From Caenorhabditis elegans (taxonomy: Eukaryota; Nematoda; Chromadorea; Rhabditida; Rhabditidae), in NCBI RefSeq assembly GCF_000002985.6, contig NC_003282.8:9052001-9116000 (forward strand): 64,000 nucleotides of DNA. Direction: 5' to 3'. A model generated the notes under the pieces. It was given only the letters and a program-made list of their open reading frames with translations, was not told the DNA's origin and made no database searches. This document shows positions 4,955 through 21,000 of this stretch, piece after piece. Each line of letters opens with the position of its first letter. Position 1 is the stretch's first letter. Both the position numbers and the translations under genes were made by a program.

Positions 4955-4974
4955 GGCAAACCCTCATTAACTAA

Positions 4975-5205
4975 TAGTCTAATTTACTAAATCACTCGTT
5001 TACGTAAGTGGCACATTTACTTCGACGTCTAATTTACTAGCGATTTCACTTTCTCTCGTTTACTGAAAAAGAGTTCATTTACTTCAAGGTCTAATTTACT
5101 CATTTTTTACTCTCAGTCATTTACTAAGAAATAGTTCATTTACTTTGAACTCAGATTTACTAACTTGCTGACATTTTCTAATTTACTACTGTTTTGGTAT
5201 ATTTT
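4975..5205 (+). repeat. Subterminal degenerate tandem repeats of the palindromic element
   Basis: Three to four imperfect copies of a unit of about 50-62 bp. Each unit starts near GTCTAATTTACT, has CGTTTACT or CATTTACT in the middle, and ends near CATTTACTTCGAC. The same array is mirrored at about 10341-10571 in the right arm. Subterminal repeats are commonly where a transposase binds; that role is inferred here. Confidence 0.6.
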
Positions 5206-5435
5206 TACATTTATGTAGTTTCAACATATGATGTTTCTTAGAGTTTTCATTTAAAAAATACCATGCGATATCCTAAAATGAATTCGTTTTTTGAACATGG
5301 TAGTTCTACTGTACCAAAATTTTTTACTTAATATTGTTTTCAGAACAAACTAGGAAAACAACGACATTCGCACGTTTTTTTTTCAATATCTGATTAGTTG
5401 TGAACCAAAAAATTCATACAGCATTCCAATTCAGG

Positions 5436-5492
5436 GATATGTGTCAAACATTTCAAATTTCACCAGTCGTTGGCCGAGCCGGAGGCGGCTGG
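5436..5492 (+). mobile_element. Helitron-type 3' end nested in the left palindrome arm
   Basis: The sequence TGTGTCAAACATttcaaatt, followed by CCAGTCGTTGGCCGAGCCGG and ending in CGGCTGG before a T, aligns with the 3' terminus of the minus-strand element at 13983. It has the same lead-in, the same CCAGTCGTT, and the same CGGCTGG|T end, but a different and weaker hairpin. The mirror copy lies at about 10054-10110. It is probably a Helitron remnant carried inside the palindromic transposon. Confidence 0.5.
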
Positions 5493-6210
5493 TTAGATAA
5501 TGTAGGACTATGTTTACTTGGTTACTTTCATACATTTTCTTGCCAAATTCGGTGCTTTCGATAAGCCAAACCCGACATTCCTTGGACCTCTGAACAATAA
5601 AACACCCTGTTTTAAAACGGATGTATCTAATTCTAGAATTGAGGTATCAAAAAGTCAGCAACTACAACCTTGTCGAGCTTAAAACAATAAACGTTTTCAT
5701 AGTTGAAAGTATCAGTTCATCTTTATCGAGAACTGAGATATGGTTGAGCTAGAATATCTCCAAATCTAGAATATTTCGGCCATCTTTTGGGGCTCACATC
5801 TTCACAGTCACTGAAGATAACTGAAAGGGACCTACTAACATAATGTGTGTCACATTATTGCCAACAACATTTCAGTTGACCACATTTTATTAATTCAAAC
5901 GCCAACAGAGTTATGAGTCTTTGAAAGTTAGACGTATATATTCTCAATCAACTCTAATTTACAAGGGAAGTCTTTGAAGGCGCCTGTAGAATTTGGGTTT
6001 TCATATTGAAATTCCGATAGAAGAGTGTTAGTTATGATCTCTCCGAAAAAATTAGCTGCCCCCGTCACGTTTCAGCAAAGTTATGACGTTTTGAAATTTC
6101 AGCTTTGAACACCATTGAAATCCACTGTCTTACCATGCTATCCACGCAAATCTTATAGTTAGCTTGCGTGACCACCGAAAATGTGACTCCTTCCACATTG
6201 TCCTGAAAAA

Positions 6211-6280
6211 TGACCTCTGTGGCCGAGCTGGGAGTCCGCGCGCCTAGTAAAAATAAAGCTATGGTTCGATTCCTTCTATT
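6211..6280 (+). repeat. tRNA-like A/B-box module, left arm (mirror at 9266-9335, minus)
   Basis: TGGCCGAGCTGGGAG (6220-6234) resembles a tRNA A box of the Leu/Ser type, and GGTTCGATTCC (6263-6273) matches a B box. Together they form an internal polymerase III promoter layout. The flanks do not pair into an acceptor or T stem, so this is not an intact tRNA. It looks like a tRNA-derived fragment inside the transposon. The right arm carries the exact mirror copy on the other strand. Confidence 0.55.
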
Positions 6281-7157
6281 TTTGAAATTTTTTTGCAAGT
6301 TGAATAAAGTTGTAAAACACCTATTTCAAACATTTTTACACACTTTCAAAGTGATTTTATTCTTTTTCGGGAACTTAGAATCATTTTCCGAACTTTTTGG
6401 AAAATTTAATTTTTTCATTTTTTTTTCTCGAAATTTCTTGATCAACTCCAAGCAAATAATAGAAAATTTTTTATTTTTTTAAAAATGTATGAAATTGCTA
6501 TTTTATTGTTCAGAAGTGTATGAAACGTACATTATACAAGTTTTAGCTCTCTATTCACAAGTAAACCATCGAAATGATCTGCATTTCATTAATTATGTGC
6601 AAAATATTTACCAACTTTGAAGTTTCATAACTTCGTTGAGATGAATTATTTGAAAAAATGATCAACTAACAAATTGTTTGTTGAGTGATAATAAACAACG
6701 TTATAGTTATACACTTTTCGATACCTTCAGCCACCAAAAAGTTGTGACCGTTTTCCAGAACCCAATGTTAATAGAAAAACCAGCTAAAAAAACATTGCAT
6801 TTTTCTATAACATCTGATCAAATTTTGAAAAGTTTTCAAAAAAAGTTTTGAAAAAAATTTTGAAAATTTTTGTAAGGGTACCCTTTGGATTTTTTTTTCA
6901 TAAATCGAAAAAAAACATTGAAACCTAAAAAAACCAAATGTTTTTGACACTATCGCCAACAACATTTCAGTTGGACACATTTTATTGCAAAATCTCATTG
7001 CCAACTATCCTATGCTGAAACCTTTGAAATATGCTTATGCTGACGTTTTGAATATGCTTATGTTGACGTGCGCTTATGCTGACAAGAGCTCTCACGAGAA
7101 TTTCGTGATCCAAAAAACACATTGAAAGCTTATATCAGGACACTTGACGATGTAAAA

Positions 7158-7235
7158 GAAAACTAAACCTATCCAGATTCGAACCAGCAATGACTGTATC
7201 TGAAGACCGTGCCCTTAACCACTACACCAAAAGGG
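7158..7235 (-). repeat. Second tRNA-like A/B-box module, left arm
   Basis: Read on the minus strand, this has TGTAGTGGTTAAGGGC (A-box-like) followed about 30 nt later by GGTTCGAATCT (B-box-like). The sequence around the B box does not form the five-pair T stem and the anticodon arm does not pair, so it is not a functional tRNA. The mirror copy is at 8311-8388 on the plus strand. Confidence 0.55.
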
Positions 7236-8310
7236 CGAGAGGTGCGCGCGTTCTCAAGGAATATATGAAATCAGTCAAGCTGTAAGATAACTAGAGCTTC
7301 TCTCGATTGGAAGATATCTAGTACTTGAAAATGTGTTCATAAAGATTGGAACTACTACAGAATAAGTCATTAAGTTATTTTCTGTTCCTATTGTTCAGTT
7401 TCTACAAGAAATCCATTCCACATTGACTTTTATTGTGAATTTGAACCTTCCGTTGGCCTAAAATACTTCTGGAGAGCTACTTTTTTCGAGAGTATTCTTA
7501 AGTCTTCTACAAATTCAACTTGTTGGAAAATCGGGAACTTCTCTGATTCCTCGAAAATACTGTTGTTTAAAAAAAAATTTTGGCCTAAATTTTTTCCCTC
7601 AAAAACACCTTCATTCTGGTATTTTCTAGGAGCATATGTCATCTGTATTGTTTAATAATTTTTTTTGCTTCAAAAGCTCTGTTTTTGTGCTAAAAAAGAA
7701 CTTTTTCGTTGATTTTTGCATTAAAAAATATACAAATGTCGTCGAATTAAATGCACGATACGCAAAGGTACGCAAACACCGATGTGTACCGTACTCCGAA
7801 ATGTTTTTAATTTCCATGTTTTAAATTAGGAAATCGACAAAAAGGAGAGTTTTAAGCACAAAAACAGAGCTTTTGAAGCAAAAAAAAATTATTAAACAAT
7901 ACAGATGACATATGCTCCTAGAAAATACCAGAATGAAGGTGTTTTTGAGGGAAAAAATTTAGGCCAAAATTTTTTTTTAAACAACAGTATTTTCGAGGAA
8001 TCAGAGAAGTTCCCGATTTTCCAACAAGTTGAATTTGTAGAAGACTTAAGAATACTCTCGAAAAAAGTAGCTCTCCAGAAGTATTTTAGGCCAACGGAAG
8101 GTTCAAATTCACAATAAAAGTCAATGTGGAATGGATTTCTTGTAGAAACTGAACAATAGGAACAGAAAATAACTTAATGACTTATTCTGTAGTAGTTCCA
8201 ATCTTTATGAACACATTTTCAAGTACTAGATATCTTCCAATCGAGAGAAGCTCTAGTTATCTTACAGCTTGACTGATTTCATATATTCCTTGAGAACGCG
8301 CGCACCTCTC

Positions 8311-8388
8311 GCCCTTTTGGTGTAGTGGTTAAGGGCACGGTCTTCAGATACAGTCATTGCTGGTTCGAATCTGGATAGGTTTAGTTTT
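8311..8388 (+). repeat. tRNA-like A/B-box module, right arm
   Basis: Mirror copy of the 7158-7235 module. The A-box-like element spans 8319-8335 and the B box GGTTCGAATCT is at 8362-8372. It points away from the palindrome centre, so transcription from the two copies would run outward through both arms. Confidence 0.55.
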
Positions 8389-10591
8389 CTTTTACATCGT
8401 CAAGTGTCCTGATATAAGCTTTCAATGTGTTTTTTGGATCACGAAATTCTCGTGAGAGCTCTTGTCAGCATAAGCGCACGTCAACATAAGCATATTCAAA
8501 ACGTCAGCATAAGCATATTTCAAAGGTTTCAGCATAGGATAGTTGGCAATGAGATTTTGCAATAAAATGTGTCCAACTGAAATGTTGTTGGCGATAGTGT
8601 CAAAAACATTTGGTTTTTTTAGGTTTCAATGTTTTTTTTCGATTTATGAAAAAAAAGTCCAAAGGGTACCCTTACAAAAATTTTCAAAATTTTTTTCAAA
8701 ACTTTTTTTGAAAACTTTTCAAAATTTGATCAGATGTTATAGAAAAATGCAATGTTTTTTAGCTGGTTTTTCTATTAACATTGGGTTCTGGAAAACGGTC
8801 ACAACTTTTTGGTGGCTGAAGGTATCGAAAAGTGTATAACTATAACGTTGTTTATTATCACTCAACAAACAATTTGTTAGTTGATCATTTTTTCAAATAA
8901 TTCATCTCAACGAAGTTATGAAACTTCAAAGTTGGTAAATATTTTGCACATAATTAATGAAATGCAGATCATTTCGATGGTTTACTTGTGAATAGAGAGC
9001 TAAAACTTGTATAATGTACGTTTCATACACTTCTGAACAATAAAATAGCAATTTCATACATTTTTAAAAAAATAAAAAATTTTCTATTATTTGCTTGGAG
9101 TTGATCAAGAAATTTCGAGAAAAAAAAATGAAAAAATTAAATTTTCCAAAAAGTTCGGAAAATGATTCTAAGTTCCCGAAAAAGAATAAAATCACTTTGA
9201 AAGTGTGTAAAAATGTTTGAAATAGGTGTTTTACAACTTTATTCAACTTGCAAAAAAATTTCAAAAATAGAAGGAATCGAACCATAGCTTTATTTTTACT
9301 AGGCGCGCGGACTCCCAGCTCGGCCACAGAGGTCATTTTTCAGGACAATGTGGAAGGAGTCACATTTTCGGTGGTCACGCAAGCTAACTATAAGATTTGC
9401 GTGGATAGCATGGTAAGACAGTGGATTTCAATGGTGTTCAAAGCTGAAATTTCAAAACGTCATAACTTTGCTGAAACGTGACGGGGGCAGCTAATTTTTT
9501 CGGAGAGATCATAACTAACACTCTTCTATCGGAATTTCAATATGAAAACCCAAATTCTACAGGCGCCTTCAAAGACTTCCCTTGTAAATTAGAGTTGATT
9601 GAGAATATATACGTCTAACTTTCAAAGACTCATAACTCTGTTGGCGTTTGAATTAATAAAATGTGGTCAACTGAAATGTTGTTGGCAATAATGTGACACA
9701 CATTATGTTAGTAGGTCCCTTTCAGTTATCTTCAGTGACTGTGAAGATGTGAGCCCCAAAAGATGGCCGAAATATTCTAGATTTGGAGATATTCTAGCTC
9801 AACCATATCTCAGTTCTCGATAAAGATGAACTGATACTTTCAACTATGAAAACGTTTATTGTTTTAAGCTCGACAAGGTTGTAGTTGCTGACTTTTTGAT
9901 ACCTCAATTCTAGAATTAGATACATCCGTTTTAAAACAGGGTGTTTTATTGTTCAGAGGTCCAAGGAATGTCGGGTTTGGCTTATCGAAAGCACCGAATT
10001 TGGCAAGAAAATGTATGAAAGTAACCAAGTAAACATAGTCCTACATTATCTAACCAGCCGCCTCCGGCTCGGCCAACGACTGGTGAAATTTGAAATGTTT
10101 GACACATATCCCTGAATTGGAATGCTGTATGAATTTTTTGGTTCACAACTAATCAGATATTGAAAAAAAAACGTGCGAATGTCGTTGTTTTCCTAGTTTG
10201 TTCTGAAAACAATATTAAGTAAAAAATTTTGGTACAGTAGAACTACCATGTTCAAAAAACGAATTCATTTTAGGATATCGCATGGTATTTTTTAAATGAA
10301 AACTCTAAGAAACATCATATGTTGAAACTACATAAATGTAAAAATATACCAAAACAGTAGTAAATTAGAAAATGTCAGCAAGTTAGTAAATCTGAGTTCA
10401 AAGTAAATGAACTATTTCTTAGTAAATGACTGAGAGTAAAAAATGAGTAAATTAGACCTTGAAGTAAATGAACTCTTTTTCAGTAAACGAGAGAAAGTGA
10501 AATCGCTAGTAAATTAGACGTCGAAGTAAATGTGCCACTTACGTAAACGAGTGATTTAGTAAATTAGACTATTAGTTAATGAGGGTTTGCC

Positions 10592-13600: not shown

Positions 13601-13982
13601 GAAAATCGGTCAATATGTATTTTGTGTTCACAGGAATAACAACAACTTTTTTGCATTTTCTCGTACAGAAGCTAATGTGTATTAATCAAGATTATTACTT
13701 AAAATCGTTTTGCGTCCTATGATATTTAAAACTTTAAATTTCTCAATTAGAAAAAAACTATCGCCTGGAAAACTATTTTCATAAAACGTTATGTAGTTTT
13801 TTTCGCTTTTAAAGGGAGAATATTACAAATGAAATATATATTTTATCAAGCTTTTTCACTTTAATGTTTCTCTGAAATAGCTGATAATCAGCAAGAAAGT
13901 CTCAAAAATTGTATTCAAATTTGGGCTAGGTGTTCTAGTTTATTAGATGTTCTGAAACATAATTTTCTTTAATTATTAATTA
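10601..13982. other. Intergenic DNA, no supported gene
   Basis: AT-rich, with scattered frames under about 95 codons in both orientations and none with splice-supported extension. The only compositional oddity is a GC-richer stretch at about 13190-13265, preceded by an acceptor-like TTTCCAG and open for about 20 codons; I list it as an observation, not a gene. Confidence 0.55.
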
Positions 13983-13989
13983 CCAGCCG

Positions 13990-14013
13990 CTAGCACGCGC
14001 CAAGGCGCGTGCT
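13990..14013 (-). repeat. 3'-terminal hairpin of the Helitron-type element
   Basis: A perfect 11-bp inverted repeat, TAGCACGCGCC / GGCGCGTGCTA, separated by two bases. It sits a few bases before the CTGG end when read on the minus strand, the position where Helitrons carry their terminator hairpin. Confidence 0.75.
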
Positions 14014-14173
14014 AACGACTGGCAAAAGTTGACATGTTTGACACATAAATCATCAATTAATCCTACAAAAGTATCTCATGAAAAAAGGTGAAAATGTTCA
14101 CTTTTTGAACACTAGGATTCCCGCCAAAATGTTTTCAAAAAATTAATATTTGAATTCCCGCCAAATGTTTCAC

Positions 14174-15585
14174 TGCGATGGGTCTCACCACGATGGGTCT
14201 CACCACGAAGGGTCTCACCACGATGGGCCTCACCACGAAGGGTCTCACCACGAAGGGTCTCACCACGATGGGTCTCACCACGATGGGTCTCACCACGATG
14301 GGTCTCACCACGAAAGGTCTCGCCACAATGGGTCTCACCACGATGGGTCTCACCACGAAAGGTCTCAATACGAAGGGTCTCACCACGAAGGGTCTCACCA
14401 CGATGGGTCTCACCACGATGGGTCTCACCACGAAGGGTGTCACCACGATGGGTCTCACCACGATGGGTCTCACCACGATGGGTCTCACCACGAAGGGTCT
14501 CGCCACAATGGGTCTCACCACGATGGGTCTCACCACGATGGGTCTCACCACGAAGGTTGTCACCACGAAGGGTCTCACCACGATGGGTCTCACCACGATG
14601 GGTCTCACCACGATGGGTCTCACCACGAAGGGTCTCACCACGAAGGGTCTCACCACGATGGGTCTCACCACGAAAGGTCTCGCCACAATGGGTCTCACCA
14701 CGATGGGTCTCACCACGAAGGGTCTCGCCACAATGGGTCTCACCACGATGGGTCTCACCACGATGGGTCTCACCACGATGGGTCTCACCACGAAGGGTCT
14801 CACCACGATGGGCCTCACCACGAAGGGTCTCACCACGAAGGGTCTCACCACGATGGGTCTCACCACGATGGGTCTCACCACGATGGGTCTCACCACGAAA
14901 GGTCTCGCCACAATGGGTCTCACCACGATGGGTCTCACCACGAAAGGTCTCAATACGAAGGGTCTCACCACGAAGGGTCTCACCACGATGGGTCTCACCA
15001 CGATGGGTCTCACCACGAAGGGTGTCACCACGATGGGTCTCACCACGATGGGTCTCACCACGATGGGTCTCACCACGAAGGGTCTCGCCACAATGGGTCT
15101 CACCACGATGGGTCTCACCACGATGGGTCTCACCACGATGGGTCTCACCACGATGGGTCTCACCACGATGGGTCTCACCACGATGGGTCTCACCACGAAG
15201 GGTCATCACCACAATGGGTCTCACCACGATGGGTCTCACCACGATGGGTCTCACCACGATGGGTCTCACCACGATGGGTCTCACCACGAAAGGTCTCGCC
15301 ACAATGGGTCTCACCACGATGGGTCTCACCACGAAGGGTTTCACCACGATGGGTCTCACCACGAAGGGTCTCACCACGAAGGGTTTCACCACGATGGGTC
15401 TCACCACGATGGGTCTCACCACGATGGGTCTCACCACGAAGGGTCTCACCACGATGGGTCTCACCACGATGGGTCTCACCACGAAGGGTCTCACCACGAA
15501 GGGTCTCACCACGAAAGGTCTCGCCACAATGGGTCTCACCACGATGGGTCTCACCACGATGGGTCTCACCACGAATGGTCTCGCA
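14174..15585 (+). repeat. 15-bp minisatellite, about 94 copies
   Basis: Near-perfect tandem copies of GGTCTCACCACGATG with recurring variants (CGAAG, CGAAA, GCCACAATG, GTGTC, GGCCTC, CAATA). Variants recur 585 bp apart: CAATA at 14366 and 14951, GGTGT at about 14436 and 15021, GGCCTC at 14226 and 14811. This shows a duplicated higher-order block of 39 units. One 16-bp unit at about 15201 shifts the phase. Because 15 is a multiple of 3 and the unit has no stop codons, frames of 350-503 codons are open on both strands. They are a consequence of the repeat, not genes. Confidence 0.97.
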
Positions 15586-15600
15586 GCGGCTTTTTTTTTT

Positions 15601-15755
15601 GAATTTTCCAGAAGGTTCTAGAACATTCCAGAATTTTCCTGAATTTTCCAGAAGGTTCTAGAACATTCTACAATTTTCTCGAATTTTCCAAAAGGTTCTG
15701 GAACATTCCAGAATTTTCTCGAATTTTCCAGAAGGTTCTGGAACATTTCAGAATA
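15601..15755 (+). promoter_or_regulatory. Heat-shock element array, 31 alternating pentamers
   Basis: From 15601 the sequence can be cut into 31 consecutive five-base blocks that alternate GAAnn and TTCnn. Only three blocks deviate, each by one base (CAATT, AAAGG, TTTCA). Alternating nGAAn/nTTCn blocks are the binding site of heat-shock factor trimers. The array is about 3.9 copies of a 40-bp unit with eight blocks per unit. HSF-1 sites carried by Helitrons have been described in Caenorhabditis, and this array sits inside such an element. The nearest downstream gene is the nuclear receptor at 18010. Confidence 0.8.
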
Positions 15756-15905
15756 ATGTTTTCAAAAAATTAAAATTTGAATTCCCGCCAAAATGTTTAA
15801 AAAAAATTCCAATTTGAAGTCCCGCTAAAATTTTTTCAAATATTAAAATTTGAATTCCCGCCAAAATGTTTTCAAAACTTAAAATTTGAATTCCCACCAA
15901 GATGT
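15755..15905 (+). repeat. GAATTCCCGCCAAAATG repeats
   Basis: Three to four degenerate copies of a unit of about 40 bp containing AAAATTTGAATTCCCGCCAA followed by ATGTTTTCAAAA. A further one to two copies lie on the other side of the satellite at 14112-14170. They are internal repeats of the Helitron-type element. Confidence 0.7.
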
Positions 15906-16015
15906 TTTTGAAAAGTGTTGAGTAGTTTATCGCGGACCTCGATCGATGTCGGGTGCGCAATCATCATAAATAACACCAAATTATTTCTCAAATAATTTTT
16001 TTGCGCTGAATGTTG

Positions 16016-16035
16016 TGACGTCACCCGTGACGTCA
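16016..16035 (+). promoter_or_regulatory. Two CRE-type palindromes
   Basis: TGACGTCA occurs at 16016-16023 and again at 16028-16035. Each is a perfect copy of the site bound by CREB/ATF-type bZIP factors. They lie near the 5' end of the Helitron-type element. Function is not shown. Confidence 0.5.
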
Positions 16036-16071
16036 GAGACAAACAGAATAGCGCCTTATATATAGTAATGA

Positions 16072-18009
16072 TTGTTGTTCTTTATAAAATCGTTCAAATT
16101 TTTTTAAATGATATTTCAACTCTTCACAGTTTTCAAGCAGTATTTCATAATTTTATTTCTTATTATAAGAATTAGCACAATTACCCCACTTTTGTATAAA
16201 CTATGTCCTGGGCAAAGTTCTCTGGGTTTCCGTTCTACTGACGCAACGGTCAGCAAACCAAATTTTGTTTATTTGCGAGTTTTTGTAATTTTTGGATGAT
16301 GGCTAGACCGAAAAAATGGGGTGAGATGTTATAAAGAAACCTTGAAATTGTGGAGTGTGGAGTAGTTTTTATGACTAATTTCATTGATCAATCAAAATAT
16401 TTGAGAAAGTACAAACAGGAAATGCATTGCACCAAAAACATCATTTGTGAAAGTTAAATCTTGATTTTCTCTAAAAAAATTTACCTAAAAATATATGTAG
16501 GACTGGCAGTCAGTCAGTGTGTCAAAATGGGTTTACACTTTTGAATGTTAGGGTAATTTTTTGAAGACCATAACAAACTATCGATACTAATTTGAATTAT
16601 TTCTTGGAAATTTTTCATGATACAGTTGGAATCTAGGTAGACCGAACCGCATAGTTTGTAAGTTTTGACAATTCGTATTCTACAAAAATTGTGTATAATT
16701 TTACAAACTCTCAAGTATAAAATAATCCCAATCTATGTATATTTAAAAAGAAAGTCATATGCAAGGAAAAAATATTTGGAAATAGTAACTTCTTGTTTTT
16801 TTTGTTTCGTCACTATCCTTGATTTGAAAAATATTTGAAGTCATTGCACGTAATCGTTCGTACTTTCAGTAGCAAATAGATTTGAAAAATAAAATTCAAT
16901 TGGAGCATCTTCTTTTCTCCTCTAACAATGAGTTGTTGATCTCCAATCGTTTGGTAGTTGATCTTTTGAATTTTGGGTTTTTATTTGGCGGATGGGAGGA
17001 GTAAGGCGTCTTTTAAAGAACGACAAGACATGCTCCGAGAGGAGCACATTGCTTTTAAAATAAGAAGAGTTTTTTGAAAGATTGAGTTTAGTTTGATTTC
17101 TGGTTTTTGATTTTCAGTAGAGCATTTGAAAGTTTCGCTACAATTATATTTCTCTGTTTCAAATATTGACTGTTTCAATAAAAATATGAATGGCATTTTT
17201 AAACTACTAATGTTTTTTTCGCTATTTTTATCCGGTTTTATTAAAAATTGATAAACTATCAAAATGTACAAAAGTATTTGGCACATTTTTTTTATTTGAT
17301 TTCGATAAAACAAAAGGCACCAGAGATATTAGCTGTCAAATTAGAAAAATACGGTAGTTGTTTTACCAAACGGATTTTTTTGCAAAATTAATACCTTTAA
17401 AAATAAAACTGTATTCTAGCAACTTCATCCAGATTCATTCAAATGTCTTATTTCAAAACAAGTATTAATATAATAATATTTAAATCTTCATATTATTCTT
17501 CATTTCCTAATCCTTTCAAAACAAACATTTTATTGTTTTGCTGATCTTCAAAAAAGATCAATTGATTATTCTTCTCATTTGACGTACTATAAGCCCCACC
17601 TCCTTACCCCACCCTTTCCGAAAACGTAGGCGGAGTCAATTTAGGGTGACTGTTCATAGAGGCCAAAAAGAAATCGAAACGCTTCAGAGAACGATTAGTT
17701 TAAGAGCAAATGTCCTCAACTGAACTCATCTGTGATGTGTGCTTCGATGAGCTTGATCACCGGAAAAGAGCAGATATAAGAGCCAAAAATTTGCAAACCT
17801 TTTCACATTTTCTTAGAATTTGCAGTTTCAGATGTTTCTAGAGTTTGTTCCTTGGTAATTGAATTTTTTTGGTAAGAAAATTTTTTTTTTGCTTTTCTTA
17901 AGTCAACTTTTTTGGTTTCAAGATATCTAAGAATCCAGCTTCTCTTGCCTTAACATCTTTAACCTTTCATCTGCTTTTATTCAAATATGAATTTTTAAAG
18001 TGTTTTCAG
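16072..18009. other. Upstream region of nhr-11
   Basis: AT-rich until about 17590, where a GC-richer patch (CCCCACCTCC...GGCGGAGTC) precedes a 43-codon frame at 17711-17839. That frame begins with an acidic CxxC-containing stretch and ends in a stop before any good donor, so it could be a 5' UTR upstream reading frame. A minus-strand frame of 110 codons at 16981-17313 has noise-like composition and was not called. Confidence 0.45.
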
Positions 18010-21000
18010 ATGGGACCATTGTGTGCCGTTTGTGAATCGCCTACTGCTTTCACTCTACATTTTGGAGGGAGATGTTGTAAAGTGAGTTAAATCATTTTGG
18101 CGAAGAATTATACACATTTTGATTCTTGATTGCTCCCCATATTCAAATTTTTATTTCTAGGCATGTGCTGCATTCTTCCGTCGAACAATTGCTCTTGATC
18201 TGAAATATGAGTGTGCTGCAGATGATCCTTGTGAAATACATTTCAGTAAGTTAAATATTCTAAGCGACTGAATAGTTTATTTTAAAACCAATTATGTTCC
18301 AAAATGGTGTTTCCTCTTTTTTTGTTTCTAGACATGTGTACTGTATTTTGTTTGTTACTATCTGATAAGAATGTTATCAAAAAAAAAGCACGAAGTTTTA
18401 TCAGTAGTTTAGTGTACTTTGTTCCCAGCTGAAACTGATTGGACAAAGAGCACGAAACACCATTAAAAACCGGTAAGATGAGGGTACAATGAAGCGGACA
18501 TGAATATTGAAATTTGCCGGAGTGTGAAAAACTGATAAGAAAAGAAGTTGGTTGATTTCTGTAAGTTAGGTACAGTAATTGTGAAGCACTAATGAATCAA
18601 AACATTCAAAAGCTGTGATCTGGGAAATCCAGATTATCTTTTCATAATTGTGACAGGCAACCTTCAATTGAAGTTTAGAATTTCCAGGCATGCGTCTTGT
18701 ATGCAGAGAGTGCCGTCTTCGCAAATGCTATTCAGCTGGAATGAGATCCGAATGTAAGTTTCAACGTCCATGAGGGCAGCACAATTCTTACTTCAGTAAG
18801 GAAGATTTGCTGTAATGAAAACATACTTTTTAGAAAATAATGAAACTGAACACTCATTTTTGTATTAGTACTATTAGTAAATCTTTCAATAAAATATGCG
18901 CCTTGTCTGTGATCAGGTCGTAGTCATTAATTGTGCCAACACGAATAAATGGCAAAAAACATACTGCACCGTTCACATTGATAACTAGATTTCTAAATCC
19001 TGTAATTTATTAATACTTTATAATGTTTCAGTAGTTCGTTCCAAGCGCGAAAACTTTGCATGCACCCGTCGGAAGGATTCCCGAAACAATTCAGATGCAG
19101 CACCGAACAGTAATTCTCCATCAACAAGACAGTCTTCGAGCCCAGAAGAAATGGATGACTGGTCATTTCAAATGTTTGAGGAGAAGCCTAAAATAGAAGA
19201 TCTTCCATTAACACCTTCTATATCTCATCCACCATTACCAACTCAGCTAATGGTATGTTAAACAAGAGTTTATGGTCAGAGAGAGGAAGAGAACATGCAT
19301 ACTTTGTACTTTGACCCGTCTCTCAATGAGTAATGCAATTAGATGATGTTCTCTTACACAGACCAGTAGACTAACTCATCTTTTGATATTCGCCCTTTTT
19401 GGGAAAACCCCTTAACTTTGTTTGTATGTTGATTTGATCTTTGAAGTTTTTCCATGCTTTTTGGTGGCTTGATTGCAGGCTAAGAGTACTGTAGATAAAG
19501 CGGATGGACCGGTTTTGCAAATAAAATTGTCTTGAATGATGTTGGGAAATTAAGAGGGAATGAGACGGTGGAAGGAGAAGCCTGACGGAAAATGGGTATT
19601 GTAAACGGGGCCTTTTTGCACTTACGATAGGGTAATAATTTTTAAAGACGGACTGCAATTGTTCATAAGATATTTAAAAAGAAAATATACTCTCAGACTT
19701 TAAATGACGCTTTTCTACTCTTGAAGGATCTATATGTAGATCTCTAAATCACTGCAATTTTTCAAATGTGAATTCTACATTTTTATTTGCAGTGACAGAA
19801 TACTTTTTGCAAGGACATATTTTTCTACTCTTTAGACACTGATTTCAGGATAAATGTGCTAAAATTATAATTGGTTTTGAGTGTCTAAGAATAACTTGAC
19901 TTCCGTTTTTTCAAGCATTATGAAAGATTGATGTTTCCTTTAGATTCCAGAGTGTAATTGAAACTGATTTTCAGCCAGAAGAATCTTCACGAACATCGTC
20001 ATTTGATGGGGGATACTGTTCATCTTATCCATCATCATCAGCAGCCACCCATCCATCTCCACCTGGAATGTTATATTCAATTGAAAACAATTCAATTTTA
20101 CAATACTATCATTCAATGGAAACTGGATTATGCTCGAAAAGAAGAATAATGTACACAAATACTGGTATGGACTTCATTCTGGATACTCATGCAAATTTGC
20201 AATGTGTAAGTTTTCATGATCATATTTTTAATTTATAGTTACACTTCTATGAAATTATTATTTAATGGCGAATCAGTTTGTGAAAATTCTCAGCATTTCT
20301 CATTATTTTCAGCCGTTCACAGTCAATGATCTACGCCCACACGATTACCGAAATTTTCGTGGAATGCTCAGACATGATTTTGTAATGCTTTTTGACTACG
20401 CAACACGATTTCCAGAGTTTAATAGTTTTACGAGTCATGAGAAAGTGAGTTAATACTACGCAATTAGGCTTCTCAAATTATTATTTTCTGCAGAATATGT
20501 TCTATCGGCAAATTGTTGCTGTTGATTTTATATTGTCTTCCGCATATTACACGGCAAAGTAAGTTTTTTTTAGAAATGACTAAAATGAAAATAAAATGAT
20601 TTCAGACTCGGTCAAGCACATCGTCAAATGGTATTGACAAATGGTGAATATCTGAATATGGATCCTTTACCAATGTCCGGAAATGAAATTGATGCCAGAC
20701 GATATTTTGATTGCGATGAGGACTTTTCAAAGTATAGGTAACTGTTCTGCTACAACAATTACAATAATTGCATATAATTTCAGAGCTCTAATGCCAATGC
20801 ACATCGCCATTTGGGAAGAAAGCATCGTCCCATTTTCCAAACTGAATGTCACTTTTGAAGAATTTTGTTTGTTGAAGGCACTTACAGTATGGCAAGCTAG
20901 TGAGTTATTTTTTCACGTTTCAGAGATAGCTTAACTTGTGTTTGAAACTCTTACCACTTTTTTTCCAGGCGGGTGTTTATTTAGTGTTAATTTTTAAATT

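Follow-up and report, generated by a model that had tools for sequence, protein, structure and literature searches.

A satellite of heat-shock elements in a non-autonomous Helitron upstream of a nuclear-receptor gene in Caenorhabditis elegans

The window analyzed here is a 64-kb stretch of C. elegans chromosome IV. It contains a nuclear-receptor gene on the + strand and, upstream of this gene, a Helitron that carries a satellite of heat-shock elements (HSEs). A TTTTCAG splice acceptor directly before the receptor ATG (18010) occupies, together with the first coding exon, positions 18003-18081 (+ strand). The first two coding exons match the Pfam zf-C4 domain (E 8.9e-11), a later exon gives a sub-threshold match to a ligand-binding domain (E 0.041), and exons of an M16 peptidase, an ion channel and a lipoyl ligase lie beyond the receptor. 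We take the receptor gene to be nhr-11, since the neighboring exons fit the ZC410 cosmid. A narrow open-access literature search for nhr-11 and ZC410.1 found no link between nhr-11 and heat; according to the portion of PMC7511720 used here, nhr-11 goes up in acid. The satellite ends 2,255 nt before the ATG, which bears out the distance of about 2.3 kb given in a preliminary description of this DNA.

The HSE satellite spans 15601-15755 (chrIV 9,067,601-9,067,755; no strand assigned) and has a 40-bp unit made of eight pentamers. It consists of 31 alternating GAAnn/TTCnn pentamers, 28 of them exact, and so reproduces the count from which the preliminary description had started. Blocks 15, 19 and 30 miss the rule by one base apiece, leaving strict runs of 14, 3 and 10 blocks, in this order. 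Tandem Repeats Finder reported a period of 40 with 4.0 copies and 90% matches at 15594-15754, and a tolerant scoring of the array gave 29 blocks, 27 of them matching. The array contains the three or more alternating nGAAn units by which a heat-shock element is recognized. An A/T-rich repeat might merely resemble HSEs by chance or composition, and GAA, TTC and AATT are indeed abundant in the unit. However, the best 31-block score outside the array within the window was 7, and the top score in 10 first-order Markov windows was 5-7, compared with 28 in the array. A strict six-block pattern (GAAnnTTCnn x3, ending TTC), counted per strand over the 100,286,401-base genome (7 contigs), occurred at 1,480 sites per strand, whereas its reversed control occurred at 0. 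The Markov null and the reversed-pattern control refute chance as the source of the pattern, and we leave it a negligible probability.

The array lies in a Helitron of 2,089 bp at 13983-16071, inverted with respect to the window (- strand). That it sits in such an element had been claimed beforehand, and the claim holds now that both element ends have been located by comparison with other copies. The best sibling matches start at window positions 13982-13983 and most stop at 16072, and conservation drops from 0.98 to 0.44 across the right end (16071). In the direction of the window, CCAG, preceded by A, forms the left end; GTAATGA, at 16071 and followed by T, forms the right end. The Helitron is inserted between A (13982) and T (16072) without target-site duplication, as Helitrons are. 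Read on the - strand, one terminus is TCATTACTATATATA and the opposite one GGCTGG, in agreement with the TC and CTRR letters of Helitron ends; the 5' end (TC) at 16071 faces the receptor gene, and the 3' end (CTGG on the - strand) is at 13983. Beside CTGG there is a 3'-terminal hairpin at 13980-14025 (- strand), with 22-nt arms that are 86% complementary, where Helitrons carry a hairpin near the 3' end. The Rep domain (Helitron_like_N, PF14214) had 0 matches in the window and 13 in the genome, and by its sequence the element is non-autonomous.

Within the element, a 15-bp minisatellite, CGATGGGTCTCACCA repeated about 94 times, occupies 14176-15582, and 4.2 copies of a 36-bp repeat with TTTGAATTCCCGCC occupy 15755-15908, neither with an assigned strand. 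The minisatellite has several open frames (~480-500 aa), on both strands. A flank search recovered four other copies, L061-L064, in which both ends are recognizable, with the last 3' letters differing in L062 and the 3' end partly lost in L063 and L064. The order common to the window copy and these four is 3' end, 36-37-bp repeat, 15-bp minisatellite, HSE array, 36-37-bp repeats and 5' end; motif matches of the minisatellite vary from 9 to 138 among the window copy and its siblings. The base after the 5' end is T in 12 of 13 distinct copies matched by a 5'-end pattern and G in L063. This pattern left out L034/L065 and L038/L069, which have altered ends, and one more exact copy of the 5' end was found at C6:9486542, outside the compared loci. 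In L069, the Helitron 5' end near position 407 abuts CCAG, the letters of a 3' end, as if two elements had been joined.

Elsewhere in the window, a near-perfect 5.6-kb palindrome occupies 4955-10591. Its arms are about 2.7 kb long and include stretches of 1,837 and 880 nt that are 100% complementary; it ends in GGCAAACCCTCATTAACTAA, and a 9-bp direct repeat, AAATTTTCC, adjoins it on either side. Judged by these features, it looks like a long-TIR DNA transposon (fold-back, perhaps Mutator-type). Inside the palindrome arms, at 10053-10083 and at the mirror position in the left arm, CCAGCCGCC...CGACTGG is similar to the 3' end of the Helitron (13983).

HSF-1 sites in worm Helitrons, cited as known in the preliminary description, are indeed published. 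According to the parts of Garrigues et al. 2019 (PMC6927752) drawn on here, 61.4% of genomic HSEs in C. elegans lie in Helitrons, 953 Helitrons have HSEs, and eight have more than 100, with motifs that look like overlapping tandem HSEs. The same parts report that heat raises HSF-1 and Pol II at Helitron HSEs, that 60 induced genes lie within 2.5 kb of them and that induced genes are enriched there. nhr-247, which has a 96-HSE Helitron upstream, was induced 254-fold in N2 and 3.2-fold in a Helitron-less isolate, and HSF-1 occupancy at col-88 was below that at hsp-70 (PMC6927752). In the portion of PMC12062965 used here, fbxa-215, which has HSF-1-bound Helitrons upstream, decreases on heat, and deletion of these Helitrons affects fertility and heat resistance. 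The Hac-HSEs of PMC6927752, as presented in those parts, are like the window element in being dense overlapping tandem HSEs in Helitrons, some of them no more than 2.5 kb upstream of a gene, including the nuclear receptor nhr-247. The window locus is not named in those parts, nor is an outward end with paired CRE sites and a TATA box described there. Since the kind is known in the same reference genome, we rate the array as already known, an ordinary and rather short example of what has been described. The present analysis adds the CRE pair with TATA, a weakly supported lower divergence of the core letters and predicted RNA hairpins.

The length of the array had been put forward as remarkable, and an exceptional length is rejected. 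Among 23 other places, a non-random set (17 from an array-like search, 5 from the flank search and 1 from the six-block pattern, with L025-L027 within one 7-kb stretch), the array was longer than that of the window at 17 and shorter at 6; the largest were L074 with 349 blocks and L073 with 282. Against it also stand the eight HSE counts above 100 and the 96-HSE Helitron of nhr-247 in the parts of PMC6927752 cited above. The genome searches scored the best 40 of 358, 40 of 53 and 40 of 79 candidates, so that copy numbers are lower bounds, and the search that scored 40 of 358 favors arrays resembling that of the window. L061, which coincides with L004 and is the nearest sibling of the window element, has 43 blocks, and L062, L063 and L064 have 7 each. 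With 17 of 23 arrays longer, and 43 blocks in L061, the window array belongs among the short to medium-sized ones of its class. In L075 (C4:4921500-4928500), three equal HSE arrays of 34 blocks, 30 of them matching, are separated by about 2.27 and 2.28 kb, as though an element had been repeated in tandem.

The DNA-binding domain of worm HSF-1 binds multimeric HSEs cooperatively, as reported in the portion of PMC9148306 used here. A near-unbroken HSE such as this one could accommodate several adjacent HSF-1 trimers when the worm is heated. We hold with good confidence that the array is a 40-bp HSE satellite carried by a non-autonomous Helitron and that its class has a role in HSF-1 binding. By analogy with published work on the same genome, binding of HSF-1 on heat at the window copy itself is likely.

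Divergence within the satellites was compared between the GAA/TTC core and the spacers. Departures from the majority unit affected 6.4% of core letters and 10.6% of spacer letters (18 loci, 289 units), a ratio of 0.60 (0.48-0.79 on bootstrapping the loci, p 0.04 on permuting positions), with 14 of the 18 loci in the same direction. With a unit based on the window and 24 loci, the ratio was 0.53 (bootstrap 0.44-0.66, p 0.09). The 18-locus set drops L026 and L027, whose unit number and rates equal those of L025, along with L062, L063, L064 and L071, which have a single unit each and showed more core than spacer change in the 24-locus run. Core change exceeded spacer change in four arrays (L004, L007, L019 and L022), and divergence in unit blocks 1 and 3, and at the C of block 2, equaled that of the spacers. 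A claim of strong selection is rejected, given p values of 0.09 and 0.04 and the fact that units within a satellite are not independent; the comparison hints at constraint without establishing it. Weak differences of this kind, together with blocks that diverge like spacers and an array size that varies freely among siblings (43, 7, 7 and 7 blocks), would also be expected of a passive relic. The satellite would then have come with the Helitron and been silenced, with no effect on the neighboring gene, and its rule would have been kept by unit slippage and recent common origin rather than by selection. The parts of PMC6927752 used here bear on this in both directions, in that genes near Helitron HSEs have more repressive marks and less Pol II, whereas occupancy and induction are published for many such copies. 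We give the passive relic about an even chance.

A different role for the bound arrays would be that of a sink, in which they act as decoys that titrate HSF-1 away from chaperone genes and do not drive transcription. The preponderance of Helitron-borne sites among genomic HSEs (PMC6927752) would favor this, as would the preference of HSF-1 for Helitrons in heated germ cells, where its activity is repressed (review PMC9737000), and TE-borne decoys have been suggested before (PMC8896005), each in the portion of the source used here. Against a sink, heat shock gives 556 HSF-1 summits at HSEs in Helitrons and a similar 578 at HSEs elsewhere, with induced genes enriched beside Helitron HSEs, in the parts of PMC6927752 considered. 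The window array contributes 7 of the 1,480 strict six-block sites and so alone could hardly matter as a sink. We consider the sink improbable.

Between the array and the outer end of the Helitron lie two CRE-type palindromes, TGACGTCA, at 16016-16023 (CRE 1) and 16028-16035 (CRE 2), neither with an assigned strand; they are the only two in the 64-kb window. TATATATA at 16057-16064 (+ strand), 21 nt downstream of CRE 2 and one of two in the window, is a candidate outward TATA box or Helitron 5' terminal signal. CRE sites bind bZIP factors. In the portion of PMC8896005 used here, six further factors, ATF-7, ZIP-3, ZIP-11 and ATF-5 among them, have over 10% of their motifs located in TEs. The pattern of the CRE pair matched once in the window and never in 100 shuffles, and the exact pair TGACGTCACCCGTGACGTCA occurs at 9 genome places, 9 of 9 within places that match the Helitron 5' end. 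Two CREs are present in 10 of the 13 distinct pattern-matched copies, one in 2 and none in 1 (L045), and the distance from the nearer CRE to the TATA is identical in 12 of 12 copies that have any CRE. The arrangement of paired CRE and TATA is thus kept in most sibling copies. In the 13 aligned 5' ends, CRE 2 is invariant, the TATA is 99% and the linker 97% conserved, followed by the array-side stretch (93%) and CRE 1 (92%); the lower value of CRE 1 comes from its loss in a single sibling (L063). Close kinship among the copies accounts for the good conservation along all 158 nt of the end, and the TATA-like letters may be no more than part of the Helitron terminus.

The order of array, CREs, TATA and outer end fits, as far as anatomy goes, a promoter that would point out of the Helitron towards the receptor ATG 1.9 kb away. 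Helitron1_CE (Schreiner et al. 2019, PMC6765114), as described in the parts of that paper used here, is like the window class in its HSF-1-bound HSEs and is heat-induced and HSF-1-driven, but it is autonomous, whereas the window element is without a Rep gene. Among six near-identical Rep-bearing copies on C2, L083 has, upstream of Rep, HSEs, TATATA and three copies of TGACGTCA; L082 and L084-L087 have other sequence there, not aligning with the first 278 nt of the L083 stretch.

If the window copy acts in this way, RNA synthesis could begin at 16071 or just beyond it and proceed towards the receptor gene. The acceptor directly before the ATG suggests trans-splicing, so that an RNA started far upstream could be trans-spliced there and still give an intact reading frame. 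The survey in PMC6927752, in the parts considered, was limited to 2.5 kb from the transcription start, while the distance in the window was measured to the ATG. Against the reading of the array as an HSF-1-bound element with an outward promoter count its 2.26 kb from the ATG, the repressive marks and lower Pol II at genes near Helitron HSEs, the modest HSF-1 occupancy at col-88 relative to hsp-70, the fall of fbxa-215 on heat and the copies that lack one or both CREs. The preliminary description suggested that the Helitron may bring nhr-11, or non-coding transcription nearby, under stress control; a measurable effect of the array on the receptor gene is, in our estimate, unlikely.

Human satellite III, the tandem repeat of nuclear stress bodies to which PMC6453478 and PMC9737000 refer, binds HSF1 on heat; the worm arrays differ in being dispersed and, among those examined, no longer than about 1.75 kb. 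Worm HSF-1 granules re-form in similar places (PMC9737000, PMC6453478), which implies a scaffold, and in the portions of these sources used here the granule binding sites are called unknown and heat-induced dsRNA foci overlap the granules (PMC6453478). The parts of the review PMC9737000 reached by a narrow open-access search do not join Helitron HSEs and HSF-1 granules. As RNA, the window array has a predicted fold of -55.3 kcal/mol (z -7.0), and a chosen 400-nt array stretch (L078:183-582) one of -169.5 (z -14.9), whose minimum-energy form is mostly one long hairpin; this form makes up 0.8% of the ensemble, and the ends of the centroid are open. The arrays are long, should attract HSF-1 and, if transcribed, would give self-complementary RNA, and HSE satellites could on these grounds be the scaffold of HSF-1 granules. 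Because the arrays are dispersed over chromosomes, and their self-complementarity follows largely from the alternating GAA/TTC rule, we put this forward as a hypothesis and think it very improbable.

If it were true, HSE satellites would supply the scaffold of HSF-1 granules. If the outward reading of the Helitron end is correct, the array, the paired CRE and the TATA would form a portable outward promoter, and such a promoter would explain how distant insertions can confer heat-inducibility in an animal that trans-splices its transcripts.
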